64,000 nucleotides of DNA from Bacteroidales bacterium (GTDB lineage: Bacteria; Bacteroidota; Bacteroidia; Bacteroidales; P3): the NCBI GenBank assembly GCA_017451385.1, contig JAFSPS010000051.1, positions 1-64,000 of the forward strand, written 5' to 3'. A program made the position numbers and the translations under genes. The notes beneath the pieces were generated by a model that worked only from the letters and a program-made list of their open reading frames with translations, was not told where the DNA came from and made no database searches. Positions 14,693-26,164 of the stretch are shown here, piece by piece; position 1 is the stretch's first letter; each line of letters starts with the position of its first letter.

Positions 14693-17001
14693 GGTCGTCA
14701 TTGCCCCTGACACCTCTCGTCGTCCTGCTGCTTCTGCTGTCGCACTGTGCAGCCGCACAAGTCGCCATAGGCGAATGGCGTGACCATTTCTCGTATGAGA
14801 ATGCCAAGCGTGTGGATTTTGGCAATGGACGCGTTTATGCCGCCTATAATAACGCTGTGGGATACTACGACATTGACGAGGATGCCGTGTGGAGGATGAG
14901 CAAGTGCAACAAAAAACTGTCTGACGTGGGTGTCAGCACCATAGCCTATGACAGCACTACACGCAGCCTCGTTGTCGCATACGGCAACGCCAATATAGAC
15001 ATTGTTCAGGACGACAGACTCTATAATGTAGGCGATTTGAAACGTAGCACCATGGCAGGCAACAAGCAGATATACGACATTGCATTCTATAAGAAGCATG
15101 CCTATCTGGCCACAGGGGCGGGGTTGGTGATAGTCGATTTGGTGCGTCACGAGATAGAGACAAGTTGCCAGATAACGACGGATGAGGTATCTTCTGCCGT
15201 CTATGCCGTAGCGATAGACGGCAGCACCATATATGCTGCTACTGCCGATGGTCTCTATACCATAGACCGCGACAACCGTTTCCCCAATATCTCCGACCGC
15301 TGGCAACGCGATGTCAGCTCGCTCCTCGCGGGACGCGCTATCCGACAGTTGCAACTCAACGGTGACGCCTTGCTGGCACTGGTGCAAGAGGAGGGTTCGA
15401 CCTACTCGTTGTTTAGGCGCAGCAGTGGCGGCGACTACATCCCTGTGGCAGGTGGTGAAATCATCTCGGTGCGATGCCGCTACGGATATACAGCCGTGAC
15501 CTATTATGACCATGTGGATGTCTATGATGCATCGTACGAGCTTGCCTATAGCCGCGACAAGTTCACATGGGGTGATATGCAACTTAATGATGCCGTATGT
15601 GATAAGGGTGGCGCGTTGTGGGTTGGCCACACATGGGCAGGCCTCGTCAAGTTTGACAGCAAGGGACGCGACAAGACCTATAATCCCGAAGGGTTGAGTT
15701 CGGACAATGTGTATAGCATTACGGCGTTCAACGACAAGACATACATCTGTCCGGGAGGGAAAACAACGACAAACACAAATCTCGGAATACAGAACTCTAT
15801 CTGCTACTACGATAAAAATGGGTGGCATAACATTGACAATCGTTCGGGGCGAAAGATATATGATTATCTGCAAGTGGCAGTCAATCCCACTAATCCAAGC
15901 CAGATGGCGGCAGCATCTTGGGGCAATGGCATCGCGTTGATAGAAGACGATGTCGTTACGGCCCTGTATGATGATAGCAACAGCAATGGAGCCATCGTGG
16001 CGCTGACTATGGAAGGCTGGCATCATGTGCGTACGGCTGCTGTGGCATTTGACAGAGAAGGCACGTTGTGGGCTACCAATTCGCTGGCAGTCAACGCACT
16101 TGTTGAGCGACGCAGTGATGGTTCATGGCATTCCTACGAGACGCAGTCGATGGTGGGCGACAACGAGGTGGACAAGCTTGTATGCGATAGCGTTACGGGC
16201 TATAAATGGTTCTGCGGACGAAGCAATCGCATCTTTGTTCATGACGGCAGAAGTCGCAAGGCATACGTCAATGCCAACAATGGCAGTCGCTTGGAGACAG
16301 GACGTATAAACTGCATGACACAGGACCGTAGTGGCGACATCTGGATAGGCACGGACAAAGGCATTAAAATAATCTTTGACGGGCATAGGGCTTTCGCCAA
16401 TGGTGGCAACGGAGAGCTGTCGCCGGTCAATTGCTCCAATATAGTAATCAGCAATGGTGAATTTGTGGAGTATCTGATGGCCTATGAGGAGGTAACCTGC
16501 ATAGCTGTGGATGGGGCCAATCGCAAGTGGGTAGGCACTGCCACGGGTGGCGTTTACCTGCTTTCGGCTACGGGGTTAGAGGAGTTGCAGCATTTCACGG
16601 CAGATAACAGTCCGTTGCCGTCCAACAAGATAGTCTATATCTGCGTGCAGCCACGCTCCGGCGAGGTCTTTATAGGCACCGACTATGGCATCGTAGGCTA
16701 CCGGTCAACCTCCACCTACGGCACAACGCTTACATCGGGCAACGCCTATGCTTTCCCCAATCCTGTGCGACCCGACTATGAGGGACCTATAGCTGTCAAG
16801 AACCTTACCAACAATGCTTTGATTCATATCACCGATGCTGCAGGGCATGTGGTCTTCACCACTACTGCCGATGGTGGTCAGGCCATCTGGAATGGGCGTA
16901 CCAACAGCGGAGAGCGTGTGGCTGGCGGCGTCTATTATGTCTTCGCGTCCGACAGCGAAGGGGGCAACCGGTCGGTGGCAAAAATACTCGTGATAAGATA
17001 G
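14638..17001 (+). CDS. porZ: T9SS-associated PorZ-like beta-propeller protein
   Basis: 787 aa from the chosen start. A signal peptide with a long hydrophobic core ends at SHCAAAQ; the mature part begins IGEWRDHFSY, typical of PorZ. The body is two beta-propellers with repeated two-component-regulator-propeller motifs such as GDIWIGTDKGI and RKWVGTATGGVYLL. The C-terminal 90 residues (AFPNPVRPDYEGPI ... AKILVIR) form a sorting-domain-like beta module. In Porphyromonas gingivalis PorZ works at the surface with PorU, delivering anionic LPS for cargo anchoring. The gene begins inside the end of mreD; ATG at 14596 or TTG at 14701 are alternative starts. recO follows after 2 nt. Confidence 0.8.
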   Translation: MDNHHFISGLFCSRRAAIRSSLPLTPLVVLLLLLSHCAAAQVAIGEWRDHFSYENAKRVDFGNGRVYAAYNNAVGYYDIDEDAVWRMSKCNKKLSDVGVSTIAYDSTTRSLVVAYGNANIDIVQDDRLYNVGDLKRSTMAGNKQIYDIAFYKKHAYLATGAGLVIVDLVRHEIETSCQITTDEVSSAVYAVAIDGSTIYAATADGLYTIDRDNRFPNISDRWQRDVSSLLAGRAIRQLQLNGDALLALVQEEGSTYSLFRRSSGGDYIPVAGGEIISVRCRYGYTAVTYYDHVDVYDASYELAYSRDKFTWGDMQLNDAVCDKGGALWVGHTWAGLVKFDSKGRDKTYNPEGLSSDNVYSITAFNDKTYICPGGKTTTNTNLGIQNSICYYDKNGWHNIDNRSGRKIYDYLQVAVNPTNPSQMAAASWGNGIALIEDDVVTALYDDSNSNGAIVALTMEGWHHVRTAAVAFDREGTLWATNSLAVNALVERRSDGSWHSYETQSMVGDNEVDKLVCDSVTGYKWFCGRSNRIFVHDGRSRKAYVNANNGSRLETGRINCMTQDRSGDIWIGTDKGIKIIFDGHRAFANGGNGELSPVNCSNIVISNGEFVEYLMAYEEVTCIAVDGANRKWVGTATGGVYLLSATGLEELQHFTADNSPLPSNKIVYICVQPRSGEVFIGTDYGIVGYRSTSTYGTTLTSGNAYAFPNPVRPDYEGPIAVKNLTNNALIHITDAAGHVVFTTTADGGQAIWNGRTNSGERVAGGVYYVFASDSEGGNRSVAKILVIR

Positions 17002-17003
17002 CC

Positions 17004-17717
17004 ATGACGCAGCAGACCACAGGACTTGTGCTTCATACCACGCTGTATGGTGAGACCTCGGTGATAGCACGTATTTTCACAAGGCAGCTTGGTGTGCGCT
17101 CTTATATAGTGAAAGGCGTGCGAACGCCCAAAGGACGCACCAAGCAAAACCTGTTGCAGCCGCTGTCGTACCTTGACATGGTGGTATATACTAAGCCGCG
17201 TGACATCAACTTTATCAAAGAGATGCGTCCTGCGCAGCAGTGGCGCACACTCGACACGCAACCCGAAAAGACCGCCATCCGTTTTTTTGCCAGCGAGGCA
17301 TTGTATAAAAGTCTGCGTGCCGACGACCCTACACCTGAGCTGTTTGATTACGTTGTACATTCTATGGAGCAGTTGGACAACGAGCAGCAGGCGGTGGCCT
17401 CCTATCCGTTGACATTCTTGATAGGGCTGTCGAGACAACTGGGCATAGAGCCGCTTGACAACTATAGCACTTCAACGCCCTACTTTAATCTTTCCGAGGG
17501 CTGTTTCCAATCGGCGCCAGCGGCTGCTTCGCAGCTCTCAGCCTATCAGTCGCAGCTACTCCACGCCTATCTCGACAACAGCGAAGGGCAGGATGTTAGG
17601 GCTCCTCGCGAGCAGCGTCTCGAACTTCTTGCGTCGCTCATCAGCTACTATCAGATACATCTGTCGGATTTCAAGAACTTCAAATCGCACGAGGTGCTTC
17701 ACAATGTTCTCGACTGA
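17004..17717 (+). CDS. recO: DNA repair protein RecO
   Basis: 237 aa. RecO loads RecA on SSB-coated DNA together with RecR. The N-terminal OB fold is visible (TTGLVLHTTLYGETSVIARIF), then KGVRTPKGR and the helical domain with SEALYKSL. Bacteroidota RecO usually lack the full zinc-finger cysteine set, and here only one Cys (SEGCFQ) is present. It follows the PorZ-like gene by 2 nt, so the two are probably co-transcribed. Confidence 0.92.
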   Translation: MTQQTTGLVLHTTLYGETSVIARIFTRQLGVRSYIVKGVRTPKGRTKQNLLQPLSYLDMVVYTKPRDINFIKEMRPAQQWRTLDTQPEKTAIRFFASEALYKSLRADDPTPELFDYVVHSMEQLDNEQQAVASYPLTFLIGLSRQLGIEPLDNYSTSTPYFNLSEGCFQSAPAAASQLSAYQSQLLHAYLDNSEGQDVRAPREQRLELLASLISYYQIHLSDFKNFKSHEVLHNVLD

Positions 17718-17771
17718 AGAGGAAGCGCTTTTGCGGTAATGTTTCTCTGTTGCAGTAGGGGTGTGGGGGCC

Positions 17772-18941
17772 TTATAGGCGTATGCCTGTGGTGAACTCTA
17801 TGAGAGCGGCATGAGAGAAATGATGCGCCTTGCAGTCGATGGCGACAAACACATTGGCCAAACGAGGGAAGACATATTTGATGCCTGCGCGCTGGTAGGT
17901 GGCACCTTCCTGTTCGTGGAGGCCTATGTGGCGATAAACATAGATGCCGTAGCTGCCGAATAGTGTGAAGTTGCCATAGTGGAACTGTTACATGAGGCAG
18001 ATGCCGTAGCTTCTCTTTTTGTAGCCAGGGCCATTATCAACGGCTTCGTCACCATAAAGCACACGCTCCACATGCTCTATGCGGCTCAGGAATCCCTTGG
18101 TGTCGTAGAAAACATCGAAGCCGATGCCGGTGGACATGTGTGGAAGGTAGCGCAGATTGATGTTGGCTCCCGCAGTGTAGCTTGCCCACGGATGTGTGGT
18201 GTTATAGACCATCCACTCTTGTCTGCAGCGGTGCATGCCGCCGCCGTAATATATCTCCCCAAACAGGGAGGGCTTAGTGCGCTCGTAGTTGGCGAAATGT
18301 TCTTTCTGGGGCTTAGAGGAGAAGTCGTAGCGCATGCCTAACTCCAAAACCATGCTGTTGAGTCCGTTGTTTGGGTAGGCTAACCGTCCTGTGGAGTAGT
18401 GAGCAAAGGCAGCAGAGGCGTTTAGCTCGAGATGCTCGTTGAGACGATATTTGCCCTTGGCACCCAATCGGATGTAGATGAGCAGTGGAGAGCTGAAATT
18501 CAAGTTCAACGGGTTGTCGTTGGGATTATAGACGCTTGTGTTGAATCCTAAGCCTATGCCAAGGTCGTAGCCCAGAAAGAAATGCGAGGTGCGCAACAGG
18601 TCACGTTCGAAAAAGCCGTATGTCGATACAATATTGTCGAGGGTTGATTTTCCGCTGTAAGGCACTATGCCGAGGCCGCTATAGGTGACGGCTAAGCCAA
18701 TCACAGGATAACCGAAAGCACGGGCATAGATGTTGCTGTCCTCCGGTTGCGTATTGTAGCCGATGCGCCATCCTGCCTCGGGGAACATATACGACTCCAT
18801 CATTTCGTTGCGTGTATCGAAAGTGTTGAGTATGTATCCGTTGCTTAGATTGAATTGCACGTTATAGCGTTTCTGTCCGAGTGCTATCTGGCACAATGAC
18901 AGCAAAAAAAATAACATCACTATACTTTTGCCGTGCTTCAT
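17772..18941 (-). pseudogene. PagL-type acyloxyacyl hydrolase (lipid A deacylase), interrupted by one stop
   Basis: The full frame is 390 codons. A TAA at 17990-17988 stops it after 317 residues (GICLM-stop), yet the same frame continues without a shift for 71 more codons, QFHYGNFTLFGSYGIYVYRH to FTTGIRL, and then ends in TAA. That tail has the beta-barrel end of the family and the KAHHFSHA segment carrying the His/Ser catalytic pair expected in PagL-like enzymes, so the truncated product should be inactive. CAA to TAA is the simplest explanation. The intact protein would have a signal peptide (1-22) and sit in the outer membrane, removing an acyl chain from lipid A. A sequencing error or stop suppression cannot be excluded. 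Confidence 0.8.
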
Positions 18942-19190
18942 TCTCTCCGTAGGTTGTGTTTTACAGTGTCGGATAATGGCAGATTGTCTCTCTCGTAGGT
19001 AGTAGTTCGCTTGTGCAAATCCTTTTCATGAAGTGTAGGCAATGAGCAATACGGCTGATTTATGGTGCGTTCAGTGTTCCTTGTTTTTTTTATCTGTTTG
19101 CAAAGATACTCTTTTTTTAGGTTAAAGATGCTTGTATCTTTCCTATGGTTGTTGAAACCGCTATGAATGAATATATAAGTAATTAGTCAG
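18942..19190. other. Intergenic leader, nothing else recognised
   Basis: 249 bp between the deacylase start and the 140-bp repeat. Besides the -7 box at 19101-19108 I see no gene, hairpin terminator or tRNA. Confidence 0.5.
19101..19108 (-). promoter_or_regulatory. -7 box upstream of the lipid A deacylase pseudogene
   Basis: TATCTTTG on the minus strand, 160 nt before the start codon. No convincing -33 at proper spacing. Confidence 0.45.
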
Positions 19191-19332
19191 AAATAAACTA
19201 CATAAACGGCGGTTTCATGCATTTTGCCCTTTCAGGGCATGAAGACTTGGCAACATATCCCCAAGGCGATGCCTTGGGCTATATGCTTTGTGGCCTTTCA
19301 GACCGTTTGCTATAGGTGAGCTTTTTTACACG
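19191..19332. repeat. 140-bp dispersed repeat, copy 1
   Basis: It aligns along its whole length with 22719-22858 in the same orientation, with long identical blocks such as CAGGGCATGAAGACTTGGCA. It contains small palindromes (CCCAAGGCGATGCCTTGGG, and CCTTTCAGG-type blocks). Short frames through it are artefacts. Repeats with this CCTTTCAGG / CCAAGG look are frequent between genes in Bacteroidota. Confidence 0.85.
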
Positions 19333-19444
19333 ATTACTCACTATCAATATATTTTATATTATAAATACTAAATTTACTCACTTACTTATGACTTGAAATG
19401 TCGGAATGTTTAATGGTTCCTGTGAGCCGATGGTGGAACACTGC

Positions 19445-20308
19445 TTACAAATGCAAGAAAATGTCGTCAAGGTTTTCAGAGAATGCAAGGTATCTGCTGA
19501 CATCCTTGGTCAGCATCTGCGGATAGTCGCGGTTGAATCGGACAAGGGTTGTTGTGGGGAAGTGGGCAGACATCTGCTCAAAGGGGATACGTATGATGGT
19601 GGGAGTGTTGAAGCCTACGCCAAATTCTAAGAGAAGGAGTTTCCGGTTGGCTGCGGAGCGTACAAAGTCATTGTAGCGTTGTGCTTGACGGTGCCAATGG
19701 CTATCTTCGACGAAAGTGTCGTCGCAACGCAGGTTGACGGCGACAGTCTGTCCGTCGGGTGTATGAGGGATAAGTTCCGTGGGGATGCGGCAATCATTGA
19801 TGACGGGCAACACTTGCTCTACCCAATGCTTGTTGTGATACAGTTGCTTGGGCTGTCCCGACGAGGGTTGGAAGAAGCCGTAGTCACCCTGCGTAGCAAA
19901 AATTCGCTGGGTGTCGAAGCCAGCTTTTTCGAACTGTCCATCGACATTGGTCGTGATGACGAAGTGCTCTTTGTGTGCTACCAGATGCAGCAGACGTCGG
20001 TAGAGAGGCAGAGCCCCTGTACGGTAGCGGCAGAACCAGATGTGCTTAGCCCAATAAGCCCACCGTTCTTCTGCCGTTTTGAAGGAATAGAATGACGAGG
20101 TGTAGAGGTCGGTGAAACCGTAGCGCTCAATCCATTGGCAGAACTCTCGGCGGAAGTCGTCGCCGGCATAGTCGAGCCCTGCTGCAGACGATAGTCCGGA
20201 GCCTGCACCCAACAAGATGCAATCAGCATCAGATATTAGATTTTTCAATTCAGCAAGCCGGTTGGAGTAATTGCTTGTAGATATCGCGGTCTTTATCGAG
20301 GAAGACAT
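19445..20308 (-). CDS. Class M sirtuin (SirTM), protein ADP-ribosyltransferase-type
   Basis: 287 aa. The NAD-binding motif GAGSGLSSAAG is at residues 34-44 and TTNVDG (the sirtuin TQNxD equivalent) at 119-124. Where ordinary sirtuin deacylases have the catalytic His, this protein has Gln140 (FATQGD), the substitution known for class M sirtuins, which ADP-ribosylate proteins. There is no Cys4 zinc finger at the usual place. It overlaps the 3' end of the zinc macrodomain gene by 59 bp, a pairing known for SirTM loci of Staphylococcus and Streptococcus. The partner genes found there, a GcvH-like carrier and a lipoate ligase, are not in this window, so the modified protein is unknown. Confidence 0.85.
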   Translation of the reverse strand: MSSSIKTAISTSNYSNRLAELKNLISDADCILLGAGSGLSSAAGLDYAGDDFRREFCQWIERYGFTDLYTSSFYSFKTAEERWAYWAKHIWFCRYRTGALPLYRRLLHLVAHKEHFVITTNVDGQFEKAGFDTQRIFATQGDYGFFQPSSGQPKQLYHNKHWVEQVLPVINDCRIPTELIPHTPDGQTVAVNLRCDDTFVEDSHWHRQAQRYNDFVRSAANRKLLLLEFGVGFNTPTIIRIPFEQMSAHFPTTTLVRFNRDYPQMLTKDVSRYLAFSENLDDIFLHL

Positions 20309-21002
20309 TGAATATAATTGTTTTAAGTGAATGTTTGTTGTAATTGTTGACTGCCTCTACCGCTATTTCGGCAGCCCTCTGGCTCGGGAAGTGGAAGACA
20401 CCAGTAGAGATGCAACAGAAAGCGATGCTTACCAAGCCGTTTTGTTCAGCGAGGTCGAGGCATGATGTGTAGCAATGCGATAGTTGTTCCTCCTGTTCGG
20501 GGGTAGGCATGCCGCTGTGGATGATGGGACCAACGGTATGGATTACGTGTTTAGCTGGCAGATTGTAGCCTTTTGTGATGATGGCATCGCCCGTGAGCAA
20601 AAGCCTTCCCTGCATGAGGTCGTGGCACTCCTTGCGCAGTTGAATGCCAGCGGCGGAGTGTATGCAGTTGTCGATGCAGTTGTGGAGGGGTTGCCAGCAA
20701 CCCAGAGCTTGTGCGTTGGCTGCATTGACGATGGCATCTACTTTCAGGCGGGTTATATCACCTTGCCAGATGGACAGCCCTTCGTCGTGGGGCTCGACAA
20801 CCCCCTTTTCTTCGCATTGCATACGGAGCTCGGCATCCTGAGCTGCCAAGAAGTCATGGCTGATAGCTTTTGGTTGCCAGATATTCATCAGGGCACGCAT
20901 AAGGCGTTGACGACCTTCAAGCGTAGAAGAAATCTGATGGCTGACGCATAGGTCAGCCATCAGATAACGGATGATAGTATCAAGATTATCAAGTCTATTC
21001 AT
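20250..21002 (-). CDS. Zinc-dependent macrodomain protein-ADP-ribose hydrolase
   Basis: 250 aa. The macrodomain core has VDAIVNAAN at residues 88-96 and STGVFHFP at 199-206. Between them GCWQPLHNCIDNCIH (101-115) supplies the C-x4-H-x-C pattern (C102, H107, C109) that binds the catalytic zinc in the Zn-Macro subclass, together with the helical N-terminal extension (1-70) typical of it. These enzymes remove the ADP-ribose put on by the linked SirTM. The start is 5 nt past the MBL lipoprotein stop, and the 3' end overlaps the sirtuin gene. So the two act as writer and eraser of one modification. Confidence 0.92.
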   Translation of the reverse strand: MNRLDNLDTIIRYLMADLCVSHQISSTLEGRQRLMRALMNIWQPKAISHDFLAAQDAELRMQCEEKGVVEPHDEGLSIWQGDITRLKVDAIVNAANAQALGCWQPLHNCIDNCIHSAAGIQLRKECHDLMQGRLLLTGDAIITKGYNLPAKHVIHTVGPIIHSGMPTPEQEEQLSHCYTSCLDLAEQNGLVSIAFCCISTGVFHFPSQRAAEIAVEAVNNYNKHSLKTIIFNVFLDKDRDIYKQLLQPAC

Positions 21003-21007
21003 CTCGC

Positions 21008-21883
21008 TTATTTTTGATACAAAGCTTGAGCCAGTGCATTGACATCGCCAGCCAGACCGGGGTAGGCAGACTGCAAAGCCTCGGCAAAAGAAGCGGCGTC
21101 CTTGTGAGAGGAAACCAGTTCCTTCACTTTTTGCAGATAGGCAATCTTGAACTCCACCTGTTCTTTCTGTGCCAATCCGCCATGGCCACCAATGAAATAC
21201 TTGGCACCAGAAGAAAGAGCCTTTTGCGCTTCGAGTAGCTCAGCCTCGACAGCCGCTCTGCTACCCACCTGAAGGGGGCTCACATGCGATTCGGAGGGAG
21301 TCCAATGGGTGTAGTACACTTGGCTACCAATAATAATTGATGCGCCGGGGAAATCGCTCGTAGCACCATGCTCGAAACGGAAGTCGATGCCATTCCATCT
21401 TTGTGTCTGTCCAAAAGGAACCTCCGAGGCTTTTTGTGTGGGTAAATCGACCATCGTCTCGCCGAATTGCTCTGCGAACTGCTTCATCATGCCGCTATAT
21501 ACAGGACCTTCGATAAAGGCAGGCATGCCTTCGGGCATCGTCAACGGCAATTTGTCGCTGCCACCCAAGTGATAGTCGGTAATATCAATCTCAACGGGTT
21601 TGCCTAATTGATTGATATAATCGGTAAACTCGGCAGCATTGACCTTGAAGAGCGGGTATTCCATCACGATAAGGGTGTCCTGCCCTTCGATGATGTAGCT
21701 TGCATCAGCCATCACATCGTTGGAGTTATAGACATGTAGTCTGAAGCCATCCATGTCGTAGGTGGAGAAAGCACCCGTCAGAGTAGCATCCGCTTCATCG
21801 GCATTGTTGGTTTGCTGTTGAGCGTTGTTGTTACAGCTCATCATAAGTGCTGCAACCATCATTGCAAAAAATACTTTTTTCAT
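21008..21883 (-). CDS. MBL-fold-like lipoprotein, zinc motif degenerate
   Basis: 291 aa. The signal peptide ends in a lipobox ALMMS-C17. The remainder resembles a metallo-beta-lactamase fold: ADASYIIEGQDTLIVMEYP for the first strands, ITDYHLGGSDK where HxHxDH would be, HWTPSESHVSP, and FIGGHGG. The usual metal ligands are mostly missing, so hydrolase activity is doubtful. It is the first gene of the operon with the zinc macrodomain (5-nt gap) and the class M sirtuin, and has a good promoter. A link between an envelope lipoprotein and cytoplasmic ADP-ribosylation is not known to me. Confidence 0.65.
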   Translation of the reverse strand: MKKVFFAMMVAALMMSCNNNAQQQTNNADEADATLTGAFSTYDMDGFRLHVYNSNDVMADASYIIEGQDTLIVMEYPLFKVNAAEFTDYINQLGKPVEIDITDYHLGGSDKLPLTMPEGMPAFIEGPVYSGMMKQFAEQFGETMVDLPTQKASEVPFGQTQRWNGIDFRFEHGATSDFPGASIIIGSQVYYTHWTPSESHVSPLQVGSRAAVEAELLEAQKALSSGAKYFIGGHGGLAQKEQVEFKIAYLQKVKELVSSHKDAASFAEALQSAYPGLAGDVNALAQALYQK

Positions 21884-22001
21884 TTTTTTTTATTTTTATG
21901 TTGAATAATTGGAAGATATTGATGCGAGACAGGGATTGGAGGGTAGTCATCGGGTGGTATTATTTCAAGGACGTTGGTGTTGTATTCTTTTTTTGACGAT
22001 G

Positions 22002-22032
22002 CAAAGGTAGTTGAATAAAACTATCCGTACAA
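22002..22032 (-). promoter_or_regulatory. Promoter of the MBL lipoprotein-macrodomain-sirtuin operon
   Basis: On the minus strand a TTG at 22032-22030, a 20-nt spacer and -7 TACCTTTG at 22009-22002. Leader about 110 nt. Confidence 0.55.
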
Positions 22033-22153
22033 GAAGGCACAAGAAGGTGCCAGAGTAACCAAAATGTAGGAAATGCGGTGAATCCATATCAGTCAAAAAA
22101 AGACTTTAACATATATTAACATAGTATAAAAGTGTAACAAGGTAACTTTTTGC

Positions 22154-22161
22154 TACTTTTG
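22154..22161 (+). promoter_or_regulatory. Candidate -7 box for the HxlR regulator gene
   Basis: TACTTTTG lies 157 nt before the HxlR start in the divergent region with the sirtuin operon promoter. No good -33 seen. Confidence 0.35.
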
Positions 22162-22318
22162 TGACAAAAATAAGAATGTGGCGTGGTGAAATGATGTCAG
22201 TACTTAGAGAAAAAAAGAAATGGTAAATTTTTTTGAATTGTCGATATTCAGCCATGTAAGGTGTAGAAAAAACAAACGAAAACACACTTACGAAGTAAAA
22301 CGAAAACAATGACAGCTT

Positions 22319-22663
22319 ATGATAGATAAGAAATCAGAATATCTGACGTGTCCCATTAGGCATGTTATCAGTCGTTTCGGCGACAAATGGTCGATGCTCG
22401 TATTATATTCGCTACACACGAGCGAAAACGGCATATTGCGATTTAATGAATTGCGACGGCTTATGACTGATTGTTCGCAGAAGATGCTCTCGGCGACGCT
22501 TAAGCATTTGGAGCAGAGTCACCTCGTCCATCGCGAAGTATATCCTGAAGTTCCACCCCGCGTGGAGTATTCGTTAACAGAGACGGGGAAGTCGTTGATA
22601 CCTGCCATCAGCATACTCATAGACTGGGGCAAGGAGCACTTTGACGAGGTTGTGGAGAAGTAG
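22319..22663 (+). CDS. HxlR-family winged helix-turn-helix regulator
   Basis: 114 aa. The family signature CPIRHVISRFGDKWSMLVLYSL is at residues 11-32, then FNELRRLMTDCSQKMLSATLKHLE as the recognition helix-turn-helix and the wing REVYPEVPPRVEYSLTETG. HxlR proteins are small DNA-binding regulators that often respond to electrophiles or redox change through the N-terminal cysteine, and C11 is present. It is divergent from the MBL lipoprotein-macrodomain-sirtuin operon, so control of that operon is a reasonable inference. It lies inside the segment bounded by the 140-bp direct repeats. Confidence 0.92.
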   Translation: MIDKKSEYLTCPIRHVISRFGDKWSMLVLYSLHTSENGILRFNELRRLMTDCSQKMLSATLKHLEQSHLVHREVYPEVPPRVEYSLTETGKSLIPAISILIDWGKEHFDEVVEK

Positions 22664-22718
22664 AGATGGCTTGCTGCGAATAGAGACTATCTCGCTATCG
22701 CATATAGGCAAGTGGCAA

Positions 22719-22858
22719 AAAATAAGCTACATAAACGGAGGGCTCATGCTTTTGTCCTTTCAGGGCATGAAGACTTGGCAACATATCCCCAAGGCGATGA
22801 CTTGGGCTATATGCGTTGTTGCCTTTCAGGCCGTTCATAATAAGTAAGCTATTTTATA
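22719..22858. repeat. 140-bp dispersed repeat, copy 2
   Basis: Direct copy of 19191-19332, differing at scattered positions only. Both copies bound the segment with the sirtuin operon and HxlR gene. The frame that could encode MKTWQHIPKAMTW lies entirely in the repeat and is not a gene. Confidence 0.85.
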
Positions 22859-22961
22859 CATAACACCATAAAACATGCATATGCTCAGCTGATAGAGCGG
22901 ATAGGATGCTGTGTTGTGCGGACAGAGAGAAAGAAAAAAGAGTAGTATGGACTTTTTTTTG

Positions 22962-22969
22962 TAATTTTG
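22962..22969 (+). promoter_or_regulatory. hutU -7 box
   Basis: TAATTTTG, 41 nt before the hutU start. The -33 position has no TTTG. Confidence 0.45.
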
Positions 22970-23010
22970 CCTGCCATTCATGATATACATCTCACAAATC
23001 ACAATATAAC

Positions 23011-25011
23011 ATGACCCTTGAAGAATTTCAGAACGAATTGAGACAAGGCATCCCCAATCCCTTGCCATCCCCCCAACCCTATGACCCTACGGTAAATCAC
23101 GCCCCTAAGCGTAAAGACATCCTCACAAAGGCGGAAAAAGAGCTTGCCATACGCAATGCCTTGCGCTACTTTGACCCTAAGGACCACGCTATGTTGGCTC
23201 CAGAATTTGCCGAAGAGTTGCACCGCTATGGTCGCATCTATATGTATCGTCTGCGTCCTACCTACAAGATGTATGCACGCCCGATAGAACAGTATCCGGC
23301 TCGTTCGCGTCAGGCTGCAGCCATCATGCTGATGATACAGAACAACCTCGACCCGGCTGTAGCACAGCATCCGCATGAGCTCATAACCTATGGTGGCAAT
23401 GGCGCAGTGTTCCAGAATTGGGCGCAGTACCGCCTTGTGATGAAATATCTCAGCGAGATGACCGACGAACAGACGCTCGTTATGTATAGCGGTCATCCGA
23501 TGGGGCTCTACCCGTCGCACAAGGATGCTCCGCGTGTCGTGGTCACCAACGGTATGATGATACCCAACTATAGCAAGCCCGACGACTGGGAGCGTTACAA
23601 TGCTCTCGGTGTGACACAGTACGGCCAGATGACAGCAGGTAGCTATATGTATATAGGTCCGCAGGGCATAGTGCATGGCACTACCATCACGGTGCTCAAT
23701 GCGGCACGCAAATTGGGCGGTGGCACGGCAGGCAAGCTGTTCATCACGGCAGGTCTGGGCGGCATGAGTGGTGCACAGCCCAAGGCTGGAAATATAGCCG
23801 GCGTGGTCTCTATCACTGCCGAGATAAACCCTGCTGCCACTCAGAAGCGCTACGAGCAGGGATGGGTGGACGAGGTGCATGCCGACCTCGACGAGCTGTT
23901 TGCCGCCGTAGGCAAGGCGCGTGCCGCCAAGCAGGCTCGCTCGTTTGCCTATCAGGGCAATGTGGTGGACCTCTGGGAGTACTGTGCCGAGCATGGCATA
24001 CAGGTGGACCTTGGTAGCGACCAGACCTCGCTCCACAATCCGTGGGCTGGCGGCTACTACCCCGTAGGACAGTCGTTTGAAGCATCGAAGAGCATGATGG
24101 CTGAGCAGCCTGAATTGTTCCGTGAACGCGTGCAGGAGAGTCTGCGCCGCCATGTGGCTGCCGTCAATAAGCTCACCGCTCGCGGCATGTACTTCTTCGA
24201 CTATGGCAACGCCTTCCTCTTGGAGAGCAGCCGTGCCGGTGCCGACATCTGGAACGACGACCATACGGCGTTCCGCTACCCCTCGTATGTTCAAGACATC
24301 ATGGGCCCCATGTGTTTTGACTATGGTTTCGGACCTTTCCGTTGGGTGTGTACCAGCGGGCGCGCTGACGACCTCGACAAGAGCGACCACATTGCTATGG
24401 AGGTGCTTGACGAGATTGCAGCGCACTCTCCTGCCGAGATACAGCAGCAGATGCGCGACAACATACAGTGGATTCGCGGGGCTAAGGAGAACCACCTCGT
24501 CGTGGGCTCGCAGGCCCGCATCCTGTATGCCGACTGCGAAGGACGTACTAAGATTGCCGCCCGCTTCAATGAGGCTATCCGCCGTGGCGAAATCAGTGCG
24601 CCGATAGTTCTCGGTCGCGACCACCACGATGTCAGCGGTACCGACAGCCCCTTCCGCGAGACAAGCAATATCTATGACGGGAGCAACCGTTGTGCCGATA
24701 TGGCGGTACAGAACGTAATAGGCGACAGTTTCCGCGGCGCCACATGGGTGTCTATCCACAATGGTGGCGGCGTAGGCTGGGGTGAGGTTGTGAATGGCGG
24801 TTTCGGCATGGTGCTTGATGGCAGTGACGACTGCGACCGTCGTCTGCGCATGATGCTCTTCTGGGATGTCAACAACGGCATAAGCCGTCGCAGCTGGGCA
24901 CGCAACGAGGGCGCTATGTTTGCCATACGCCGTGCTATGGAGCAAAATCATGACCTCAAAGTCACGATGCCGAACCTTGTAGATGACAAAGTCCTCGAAG
25001 GTCTCTTTTAG
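23011..25011 (+). CDS. hutU: Urocanate hydratase, long form
   Basis: 666 aa, about 100 longer than the Pseudomonas type, as is normal for Bacteroidota. It adds water to urocanate to give 4-imidazolone-5-propionate in histidine breakdown, using a tightly bound NAD as electrophile. Visible landmarks are ITYGGNGAVFQNWAQYRL, MYSGHPMGLYPSH, GGMSGAQPKAGNIAG, GSDQTSLHNPWAGGYYP and IHNGGGVGWGE. The usual partners hutH, hutI and ftcD are not in the window, so it stands alone with its own promoter and terminator. The start at 23011 (MTLEEFQNEL) is the only sensible one. Confidence 0.97.
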   Translation: MTLEEFQNELRQGIPNPLPSPQPYDPTVNHAPKRKDILTKAEKELAIRNALRYFDPKDHAMLAPEFAEELHRYGRIYMYRLRPTYKMYARPIEQYPARSRQAAAIMLMIQNNLDPAVAQHPHELITYGGNGAVFQNWAQYRLVMKYLSEMTDEQTLVMYSGHPMGLYPSHKDAPRVVVTNGMMIPNYSKPDDWERYNALGVTQYGQMTAGSYMYIGPQGIVHGTTITVLNAARKLGGGTAGKLFITAGLGGMSGAQPKAGNIAGVVSITAEINPAATQKRYEQGWVDEVHADLDELFAAVGKARAAKQARSFAYQGNVVDLWEYCAEHGIQVDLGSDQTSLHNPWAGGYYPVGQSFEASKSMMAEQPELFRERVQESLRRHVAAVNKLTARGMYFFDYGNAFLLESSRAGADIWNDDHTAFRYPSYVQDIMGPMCFDYGFGPFRWVCTSGRADDLDKSDHIAMEVLDEIAAHSPAEIQQQMRDNIQWIRGAKENHLVVGSQARILYADCEGRTKIAARFNEAIRRGEISAPIVLGRDHHDVSGTDSPFRETSNIYDGSNRCADMAVQNVIGDSFRGATWVSIHNGGGVGWGEVVNGGFGMVLDGSDDCDRRLRMMLFWDVNNGISRRSWARNEGAMFAIRRAMEQNHDLKVTMPNLVDDKVLEGLF

Positions 25012-25033
25012 GAATATACGAATGAAAAAGAAC

Positions 25034-25072
25034 AAGATGGGGCTGTCTGCTGATTGGTGGCCCCATCTTTTT
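25034..25072 (+). terminator. hutU terminator
   Basis: A 10-bp stem AAGATGGGGC (25034-25043) with GCCCCATCTT (25060-25069) continues into a run of five Ts. It starts 23 bp past the hutU stop and ends before the next gene. Confidence 0.85.
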
Positions 25073-25093
25073 GAGATGTGATGAGAGAGAAAA

Positions 25094-26164
25094 ATGGAGC
25101 CAATGCAAAAGCCTTTTGTCGTTGCTGGTCCTTGTAGTGCCGAGAGTTGCAGCCAGTTGGAGCGGTCGGCATCTGACGTGATGTCAATTCCCCATGTGGT
25201 TATGATACGTTGTGGTGTCTGGAAGCCGCGCACACGTCCGGGTGGTTTTGAGGGCATGGGGGAGGCGGCTCTTGCATGGATTGCCGAAATCAAGCAGCGA
25301 CACCCCGACTGGCGTTTCTGCTGCGAGGTGGCGCGTCCTCGACATGTGGAGCTGGCGATGAGTTATGGCATTGATGCCGTATGGATAGGTGCGCGCACCA
25401 CCGCCGACCCGTTCTCTGTCGGCGAGGTGGCACAAGCCCTCAAAGGATGTGGCATCCCTGTGTTGGTGAAGAATGCGCCTATGCCCGATGTTGCGCCGTG
25501 GATTGGCGCAATAGAGCGTTTCGAGGCTGCCGGCGTAGCATCCGTCATGGCGGTACACCGTGGTTTCGCCACCTATCGCGATAGTGGTTTGCGCAACAGT
25601 CCGCTATGGGACATACCTATCGAGTTGCGTCGTCTGCGTGGCGACTTGCCCATCCTATGCGACCCGTCGCATATAGCAGGCCACAGTGATAAGGTCGGAC
25701 ATATAGCAACGATGGCGATGGCGATGGGTTTTGACGGTTTGATGGTTGAGGTGCACGACAATCCGAGCGAGGCCCTTACCGATGCCGAGCAGCAGCTATC
25801 GCCGTCGCAGTTTGCATCGCTCATGGAGATGCTGCGTATGCCTCACGACGACGAGGCTGTCGCCGAGCAGCGCCTTGCCGATTTGCGTCTGGCTATTGAT
25901 GGTGTTGATGAGCAGCTGCTGCTGTTGCTTCACCAGCGTATGCAGCTGAGCAAGAGTATAGCGGCTGTGAAACGTTGTTATGATTTGCCGGTGTTGCAGA
26001 GCCGCCGATGGAACGCCCTGTTGTCCGACAGGCTTGCCCGTGCCGAACGGCTGGGGCTCAGCCAGCAGTTTGTCAAAGAGATTTTGGAGAAGATACACTC
26101 CGAGAGTATTCGTGTGCAGATTGACGATGGGGGGAAGCGCGATGAGGACGCTAATCAACCTTGA
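25094..26164 (+). CDS. 3-deoxy-7-phosphoheptulonate synthase / chorismate mutase fusion
   Basis: 356 aa bifunctional enzyme of aromatic amino acid synthesis. The N-terminal DAHP synthase of the KDO8P-like (I-beta) group has GPCSAES at residues 12-18, RPGGFEGMG, KNAPMPD and CDPSHIAGHSDK; it joins phosphoenolpyruvate and erythrose 4-phosphate. From about residue 262 an AroQ-type chorismate mutase follows (LRLAIDGVDEQLLLLLHQRMQLSKSIAAVK), converting chorismate to prephenate. The fused mutase often acts as the feedback sensor in Bacteroidota. The 3' end overlaps the converging PepSY-like gene by 14 bp. aroK starts at the far end of the window, not here. Confidence 0.95.
   Translation: MEPMQKPFVVAGPCSAESCSQLERSASDVMSIPHVVMIRCGVWKPRTRPGGFEGMGEAALAWIAEIKQRHPDWRFCCEVARPRHVELAMSYGIDAVWIGARTTADPFSVGEVAQALKGCGIPVLVKNAPMPDVAPWIGAIERFEAAGVASVMAVHRGFATYRDSGLRNSPLWDIPIELRRLRGDLPILCDPSHIAGHSDKVGHIATMAMAMGFDGLMVEVHDNPSEALTDAEQQLSPSQFASLMEMLRMPHDDEAVAEQRLADLRLAIDGVDEQLLLLLHQRMQLSKSIAAVKRCYDLPVLQSRRWNALLSDRLARAERLGLSQQFVKEILEKIHSESIRVQIDDGGKRDEDANQP

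Follow-up and report, generated by a model that had tools for sequence, protein, structure and literature searches.

A stretch of 64,000 nucleotides from a Bacteroidales bacterium (contig JAFSPS010000051.1; the window) contains a compact gene block in which a class M sirtuin (SirTM), a zinc macrodomain (Zn-Macro) protein and a metallo-beta-lactamase-fold (MBL) lipoprotein form a predicted operon, with the gene of an HxlR regulator facing it. We favour, with moderate confidence, the reading that the SirTM/Zn-Macro pair provides reversible ADP-ribosylation within a thiol/electrophile-stress regulon under HxlR control; the operon was probably acquired horizontally. Comparison of sequences establishes the gene content, the catalytic residues, the linkage to HxlR, the shared promoter type and the loss of the zinc ribbon in the SirTM branch to which the window belongs. 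The features of the locus are as follows.

19445..20308, minus strand: SirTM (class M sirtuin), predicted protein ADP-ribosyltransferase; N121, Q140 and R194 conserved, zinc-ribbon cysteines lacking
20250..21002, minus strand: zinc macrodomain, predicted ADP-ribosyl hydrolase; C102-x4-H107-x-C109; 59-bp overlap with SirTM
21008..21883, minus strand: MBL-fold lipoprotein lacking HxHxDH; H50, H105, D177, H193, H200 and H234 invariant in 22 rows
22319..22663, plus strand: divergent HxlR (MarR/DUF24) regulator; Cys11 aligned to HypR Cys14, extra Cys52
22001..22035, minus strand: predicted promoter of the MBL-macro-SirTM operon; TTCTTG as a -33-like element, N20, and TACCTTTG at -7
22036..22062, minus strand: conserved operator-like stretch TTGGTTACTCTGGCACCTTCTTGTGCC, directly above -33; predicted HxlR site
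19192..19335, plus strand: copy A of a dispersed repeat, outside the block
22721..22859, plus strand: copy B of the same repeat, outside the block

The initial annotation had named these four genes, with writer and eraser overlapping and no gene for the GcvH-L carrier or its lipoate ligase LplA beside them, and all of this holds: the only neighbours of the pair in the window are the MBL and HxlR genes (5 bp separate the MBL gene from the macrodomain gene), and GcvH is encoded on another contig. No GcvH-L, LplA2, OYE or LLM gene was identified in the block, to which the search for lipoate ligase was limited. Two matches to RNA families in 16000-26000 fell far under the cut-offs and are taken as chance.

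The ADP-ribosylation pair and its regulator

The protein of the window is assigned to class M on the basis of its Q140-G141 signature and its linkage to a macrodomain, and its ADP-ribosyltransferase function is predicted. The replacement of the catalytic His by Gln, pointed out in the initial annotation, is found in all 80 SirTM sequences compared, each of which keeps all three catalytic residues. A four-Cys zinc ribbon, as in PDB structure 5a3a, is present in nine of the 80, all of them order-level sequences, and is absent from the 71-row branch that includes the window (support 99 in the quick tree and 100/98 in the careful one), which suggests that SirTM can lose this element. The C-x4-H-x-C motif, likewise described before, is invariant in 11/11 macrodomains; the protein matches NF003163 over its cut-off, and its best PDB match is MorMacro from a minimal SirTM/Zn-Macro pair.

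The linkage of this pair to HxlR was followed in a census of 58 SirTM loci, that of the window included, from 56 of the 63 SirTM-matching genomes among 120 of the genus; the other seven contain only fragments or genes at contig edges. Genes of the relatives were called by codon usage and searches with hidden Markov models, longest-open-reading-frame calls being misled by antisense frames. Within 3 kb of SirTM, HxlR is found in 53 loci (as short fragments in L327 and L354) and the macrodomain in 52, so that HxlR, which could have passed for an incidental neighbour, accompanies SirTM as regularly as the eraser itself. The same distance also takes in a cupin (42 loci), a PNPOx-like flavoprotein (26), the MBL protein (16, two of them partial) and a flavodoxin (7). 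Restricting the census to the 37 loci with 3 kb available on either side of SirTM gives HxlR 34, macrodomain 34, cupin 28, PNPOx 18, MBL 11 and flavodoxin 5. With the same models, no member of these families was detected in 20 control loci of the genus (182 kb). HxlR homologues are sparse, with 18 matches in 25 genomes, ten of which have none. Relative to SirTM, HxlR lies upstream on the same strand in 37 of the 80 rows, downstream on the same strand in 16 and divergently in 11; the remaining 16 showed no HxlR within 4 kb. These four states require at least 18 changes on the quick SirTM tree, so the linkage has outlived rearrangement.

Six loci with an HxlR-SirTM pair have no macrodomain within 3 kb (genomes G059, G125, G106, G108, G114 and G109; three of the loci end early on one side). 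In L305, L310, L312, L318, L323 and L333, SirTM stands directly beside HxlR, a writer without a linked eraser. Conversely, Zn-macrodomain genes without a linked SirTM occur in L059 (8569-9297) and L060 (7904-8632), each adjoining a related small gene, for which a tRNA_SAD domain was detected in the one tested. At the order level, an NAD(P)-binding NmrA-like protein is a neighbour: the gene order is divergent HxlR, NmrA-like, macrodomain, SirTM in L297, and divergent HxlR, NmrA-like, MBL, PNPOx, macrodomain, SirTM in L289.

The regulator itself has a clear HxlR domain (PF01638, 108 bits against a cut-off of 20.8). A switch of the HypR type uses two cysteines, the second at position 49. Cys11 of the window protein, conserved in 78/81 HxlR sequences, aligns with Cys14 of HypR (PDB structure 4a5m), which is described as the redox-sensing cysteine in the available text of PMC6943732. 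Cys52 is found in 69/81 sequences and is thus not general: Ile takes its place in seven MBL-only order-level loci, in four of six order-level SirTM loci and in six loci of the genus. Like HypR, YodB, CatR and QsrR of the MarR/DUF24 family, this regulator combines an HxlR domain with a conserved N-terminal Cys and oxidoreductase-type neighbours; it differs from them in having Met at the position of HypR Cys49, in the extra Cys52 and in its linkage to ADP-ribosylation enzymes.

Between their HxlR and MBL genes, the window and Prevotella share a conserved region. A composite pattern, [CT]TCTTG-N18-22-TANNTTTGC, which we take to contain the -33 and -7 (TAnnTTTG) elements of Bacteroidota promoters, occurs in 45 of the 58 SirTM loci of the genus and in 40 of 47 MBL loci, and is missing from all 20 control loci, with 0-1 hits in shuffled sequences. 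Of the 46 matches in the genus loci, 43 have a block gene less than 250 bp downstream (cupin in 36 cases, MBL in six, SnoaL in one). The window matches once, at 22001-22035, where 0.03 matches are expected, and eight of 11 MBL loci without SirTM have the same promoter type (the pattern minus its last C). Two other candidate patterns, P1 and P4, proved unspecific or empty. Above the promoter, inverted half-sites ACC-N2-5-GGTA are seen in 33 of 41 upstream regions of the genus, compared with 111 among 5000 control 66-mers and 135 among 4100 shuffled sequences. In the window, HxlR would bind at the operator-like stretch 22036..22062.

Several observations weigh against a common HxlR-controlled regulon. 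The promoter pattern was defined after inspection of these same loci, so the controls weigh more than the hit rate, and only one of 12 order-level loci contains it; the window itself falls outside the half-site pattern of the genus. HxlR was not detected in five of the 58 genus loci (two of these end early), and the linkage is weaker outside the branch of the window, with HxlR within 3 kb in four of 12 order-level SirTM loci (it lies at about 3 kb in L289 and farther away in L296). The loci are related, so these counts are not independent. Thiol sensing is also open to challenge: the window has Met49 at the position of HypR Cys49 and Cys52 instead, two loci (L053 and L307) have Val at the position of Cys11, and HxlR proteins are able to sense aldehydes too. 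Finally, the regulon, its induction and the ADP-ribosylation are all predictions from sequence.

Proposed function and the candidate targets

In the mechanism that we propose, oxidants or electrophiles would modify Cys11 of HxlR and the divergent promoter would be switched on; SirTM would then use NAD+ to mono-ADP-ribosylate a cytosolic protein, and the Zn-macrodomain would take the mark off. The MBL protein, acting outside the cytoplasm, would serve a parallel, co-regulated stress function and would not be a direct partner of SirTM.

Oxidative-stress roles have been proposed for SirTM systems (available text of PMC4518038 and PMC11490716). The minimal SirTM/Zn-Macro operon, as far as it is described there, likewise consists of an adjacent Zn-macrodomain and a QG-type SirTM with the same catalytic residues, and has no GcvH-L or LplA. 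The loci described here differ from it in the HxlR gene with a shared promoter type, in the cupin, PNPOx and MBL neighbours, in the loss of the SirTM zinc ribbon and in the six of 58 genus loci that lack a nearby macrodomain. With the extended operon of Staphylococcaceae and Lactobacillales the block shares the Macro-SirTM core, oxidoreductase-type neighbours (here, in relatives) and a suggested role in oxidative stress, whereas the accessory genes of that operon (GcvH-L, LplA2, OYE, LLM) were not identified in it.

The only known substrate of SirTM is GcvH-L, the targets of other SirTM/Zn-Macro systems being left open in the available text of PMC11490716. A switch of the Firmicute kind, in which SirTM would modify a lipoylated GcvH whose gene lies at another place in the genome, has this precedent on its side, as well as the presence of GcvH in the genome of the window (contig C43) and matches in 100 of the 120 genus genomes (above the cut-off in 98). 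GcvH does not track SirTM, however: it is found in 55 of 63 genomes with SirTM and in 45 of 57 without, two SirTM genomes (G081 and G099, 98% complete) have no match to it, and no SirTM gene has a GcvH match within 25 kb. According to the same portion of PMC11490716, moreover, macrodomains of a minimal pair (MorMacro) or of fusions did not remove the mark from GcvH-L. The inactivity of the minimal-pair macrodomain and the independence of GcvH from SirTM favour another target, and GcvH is probably not the one; we regard the Firmicute-type switch as unlikely. Bolder, and decidedly speculative, is the idea that the zinc-ribbon-less SirTM branch modifies a member of the regulon, in the boldest version HxlR itself, which would set or reset the regulator; HxlR is the sole other cytosolic partner in the block of the window and lies near SirTM in all six loci without a macrodomain.

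A role of the MBL lipoprotein as substrate or functional partner of the pair would fit its position next to the macrodomain gene and its distribution in the genus, where 17 of 17 genomes with the MBL gene also have SirTM and 16 have the two linked. Yet its export signal would set it apart from cytosolic NAD+, 42 of 58 SirTM loci showed no copy of it within 3 kb, a SnoaL-type lipoprotein stands in its place in L053, L307 and L313 (with a similar signal peptide in the first two), and nine of 11 order-level MBL genomes have no SirTM match; taken together, these facts make such a partnership very improbable. An anti-phage defence module of the SIR2/macrodomain kind is hardly credible: the use of NAD and the patchy presence (63 of 120 genomes) would suit it, but PADLOC matched none of the four proteins, and what recurs at these loci is a regulator with redox-type neighbours.

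The regulon reading accommodates the MBL protein as a partner that travels often, not always, with SirTM, as its distribution indicates. The fold is assigned, and the degeneracy of the metal site, recognized in the initial annotation, is confirmed, HxHxDH being replaced by [DN]YHxG[GS] in 22 of 22 rows. A PDB sequence search gave no convincing relative, and the protein differs from chlorothalonil dehalogenase (6uxu), the alkylsulfatases and PqsE in lacking HxHxDH, in its low identity (9-14%) and in its export signal. The 17 genus genomes with the gene (16 full length, partial in G073) remain after 13 others with N-terminal-only matches (E 6e-9 to 9e-4) were dropped. The expectation that MBL protein, macrodomain and SirTM co-occur is borne out within the genus, but the MBL gene is no obligate partner. 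A scan of genome contigs, some of them the same records as the genus genomes, gave 47 MBL loci, of which 27 have SirTM, 24 SirTM and macrodomain, and 33 HxlR; nine of the 20 without SirTM are too short downstream to judge, and SirTM is found in 20 of the 31 loci with 3.5 kb downstream. Among 393 order-level genomes, with at most six candidates considered in each, 11 have a strong MBL match and 14 a strong SirTM match (E up to about 1e-39), and two have both. Relatives of the MBL protein in Succinivibrionaceae, Alistipes and Desulfovibrio (L173, L175 and L176; 44-51% identity) have signal-peptide-like N-termini without a lipobox Cys, and no SirTM in the compared locus.

Among the matches listed from the open-licence PMC literature there was no report of such an HxlR-SirTM/macrodomain regulon, and no word beginning with 'bacteroid' appears in the main texts of PMC4518038 and PMC11490716. 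With a recurring HxlR and a shared promoter type, a class of inducers, a candidate site of binding and a few candidate substrates are at hand, and the role of minimal SirTM pairs can be tested directly in cultivable Bacteroidales. A small gene block of a gut bacterium would thereby place a little-understood form of ADP-ribosylation signalling within a redox-stress gene set.

Transfer of the block, its genomic slot and the flanking repeats

The block probably came, as a whole, from related bacteria. Positions 17000-25000 of the window were compared with eleven loci of the Prevotella/Paludibacteraceae type: nucleotide identity is 67-77% (up to 84% in short stretches), homology is confined to 19475-22653, which takes in the operon, its promoter and HxlR, and none of five genes flanking the block in the window is present in these loci. 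The order divergent HxlR-MBL-macro-SirTM is identical in Prevotella UBA2809, UBA2754, SIG145 and Tb.RUG.396, whose proteins are 81-86% (HxlR), 74-77% (MBL), 73-80% (macrodomain) and 65-72% (SirTM) identical to those of the window; the corresponding values within its own genus are 42-45% for HxlR (nine others), 63-65% for MBL (four) and 61-64% for SirTM (ten). A careful MBL tree of 41 rows puts the window in an 11-row set (support 100/99), every other member of which is, in the quick tree, a non-genus locus, and a grouping of the window with the genus is rejected (p-AU 0.019, or 0.0005 when two near relatives of the genus are left out).

The remaining trees speak less clearly for transfer. The HxlR tree places the window with Prevotella-type rows (support 98), but a grouping with the genus is not rejected (p-AU 0.13). 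The quick SirTM tree has the window, flagged as a long branch, in a 13-row clade of the Prevotella/Paludibacteraceae type (SH-aLRT 96), and the careful tree, built from 76 of the 80 rows with the four longest order-level rows left out, supports that group at 61/93 and does not reject a grouping of the window with 46 genus rows (p-AU 0.50). The SirTM tree by itself was therefore dropped as an argument for transfer, and SirTM may have descended within the genus; the case for transfer is based on the MBL tree, the shared gene order and the points at which homology ends. Nucleotide identity of 73% implies that the event was not recent or that the donor is unsampled. SirTM-like genes were also found in 27 plasmid records, all under 60% identity (best 46%), and in two phage records; to our knowledge, none of the ten organisms named for the plasmid records belongs to the Bacteroidota.

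Relatives vary in what lies between recO and hutU. In the 12 of 20 hutU-side loci where recO is seen, it is mostly separated from hutU by an open reading frame of 770-800 aa (two tested are subtilases), and in G014 nothing lies between the two genes. At 17717-23011 the window has, instead of this frame, the block and a PagL-like gene (17988-18941), which has only weak homologues in relatives. None of the 20 loci contains block genes. The block is not fixed at this slot among these relatives, and the suggestion that it travels as a unit is upheld, the four genes recurring in Prevotella without the flanks seen in the window.

The vehicle envisaged in the initial annotation, a cassette gained or lost by recombination between two 140-bp repeats, fares worse. 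The repeats are real (87% identical, in the same direction, one on each side), and the absence of the block from the relatives' hutU-side loci would agree with such a cassette. The genome, however, contains 14 matches to the repeat, eight of them near full length and spread over seven contigs, and, among the other copies, two (91 and 90%) resemble copy A clearly more than B does and a further two (88%) to about the same degree as B. Homology with Prevotella is confined to the stretch between the two copies, and the repeat was not found in the compared loci of other genomes, including the Prevotella loci with the same block, nor in the 20 hutU-side loci, which come from relatives and not from the same species. 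Dispersed, external to the homologous block and not found around it elsewhere, the repeats carry no cassette signature, and a repeat-driven cassette is most improbable; A and B are dispersed repeats of the genome itself that flank the block by chance. Copy A has a hairpin-like core, CCCAAGGC-GAT-GCCTTGGG, within its roughly 140 bp, and further near-full copies lie on contigs C2, C26, C30, C32, C38 and C54 of the same genome.

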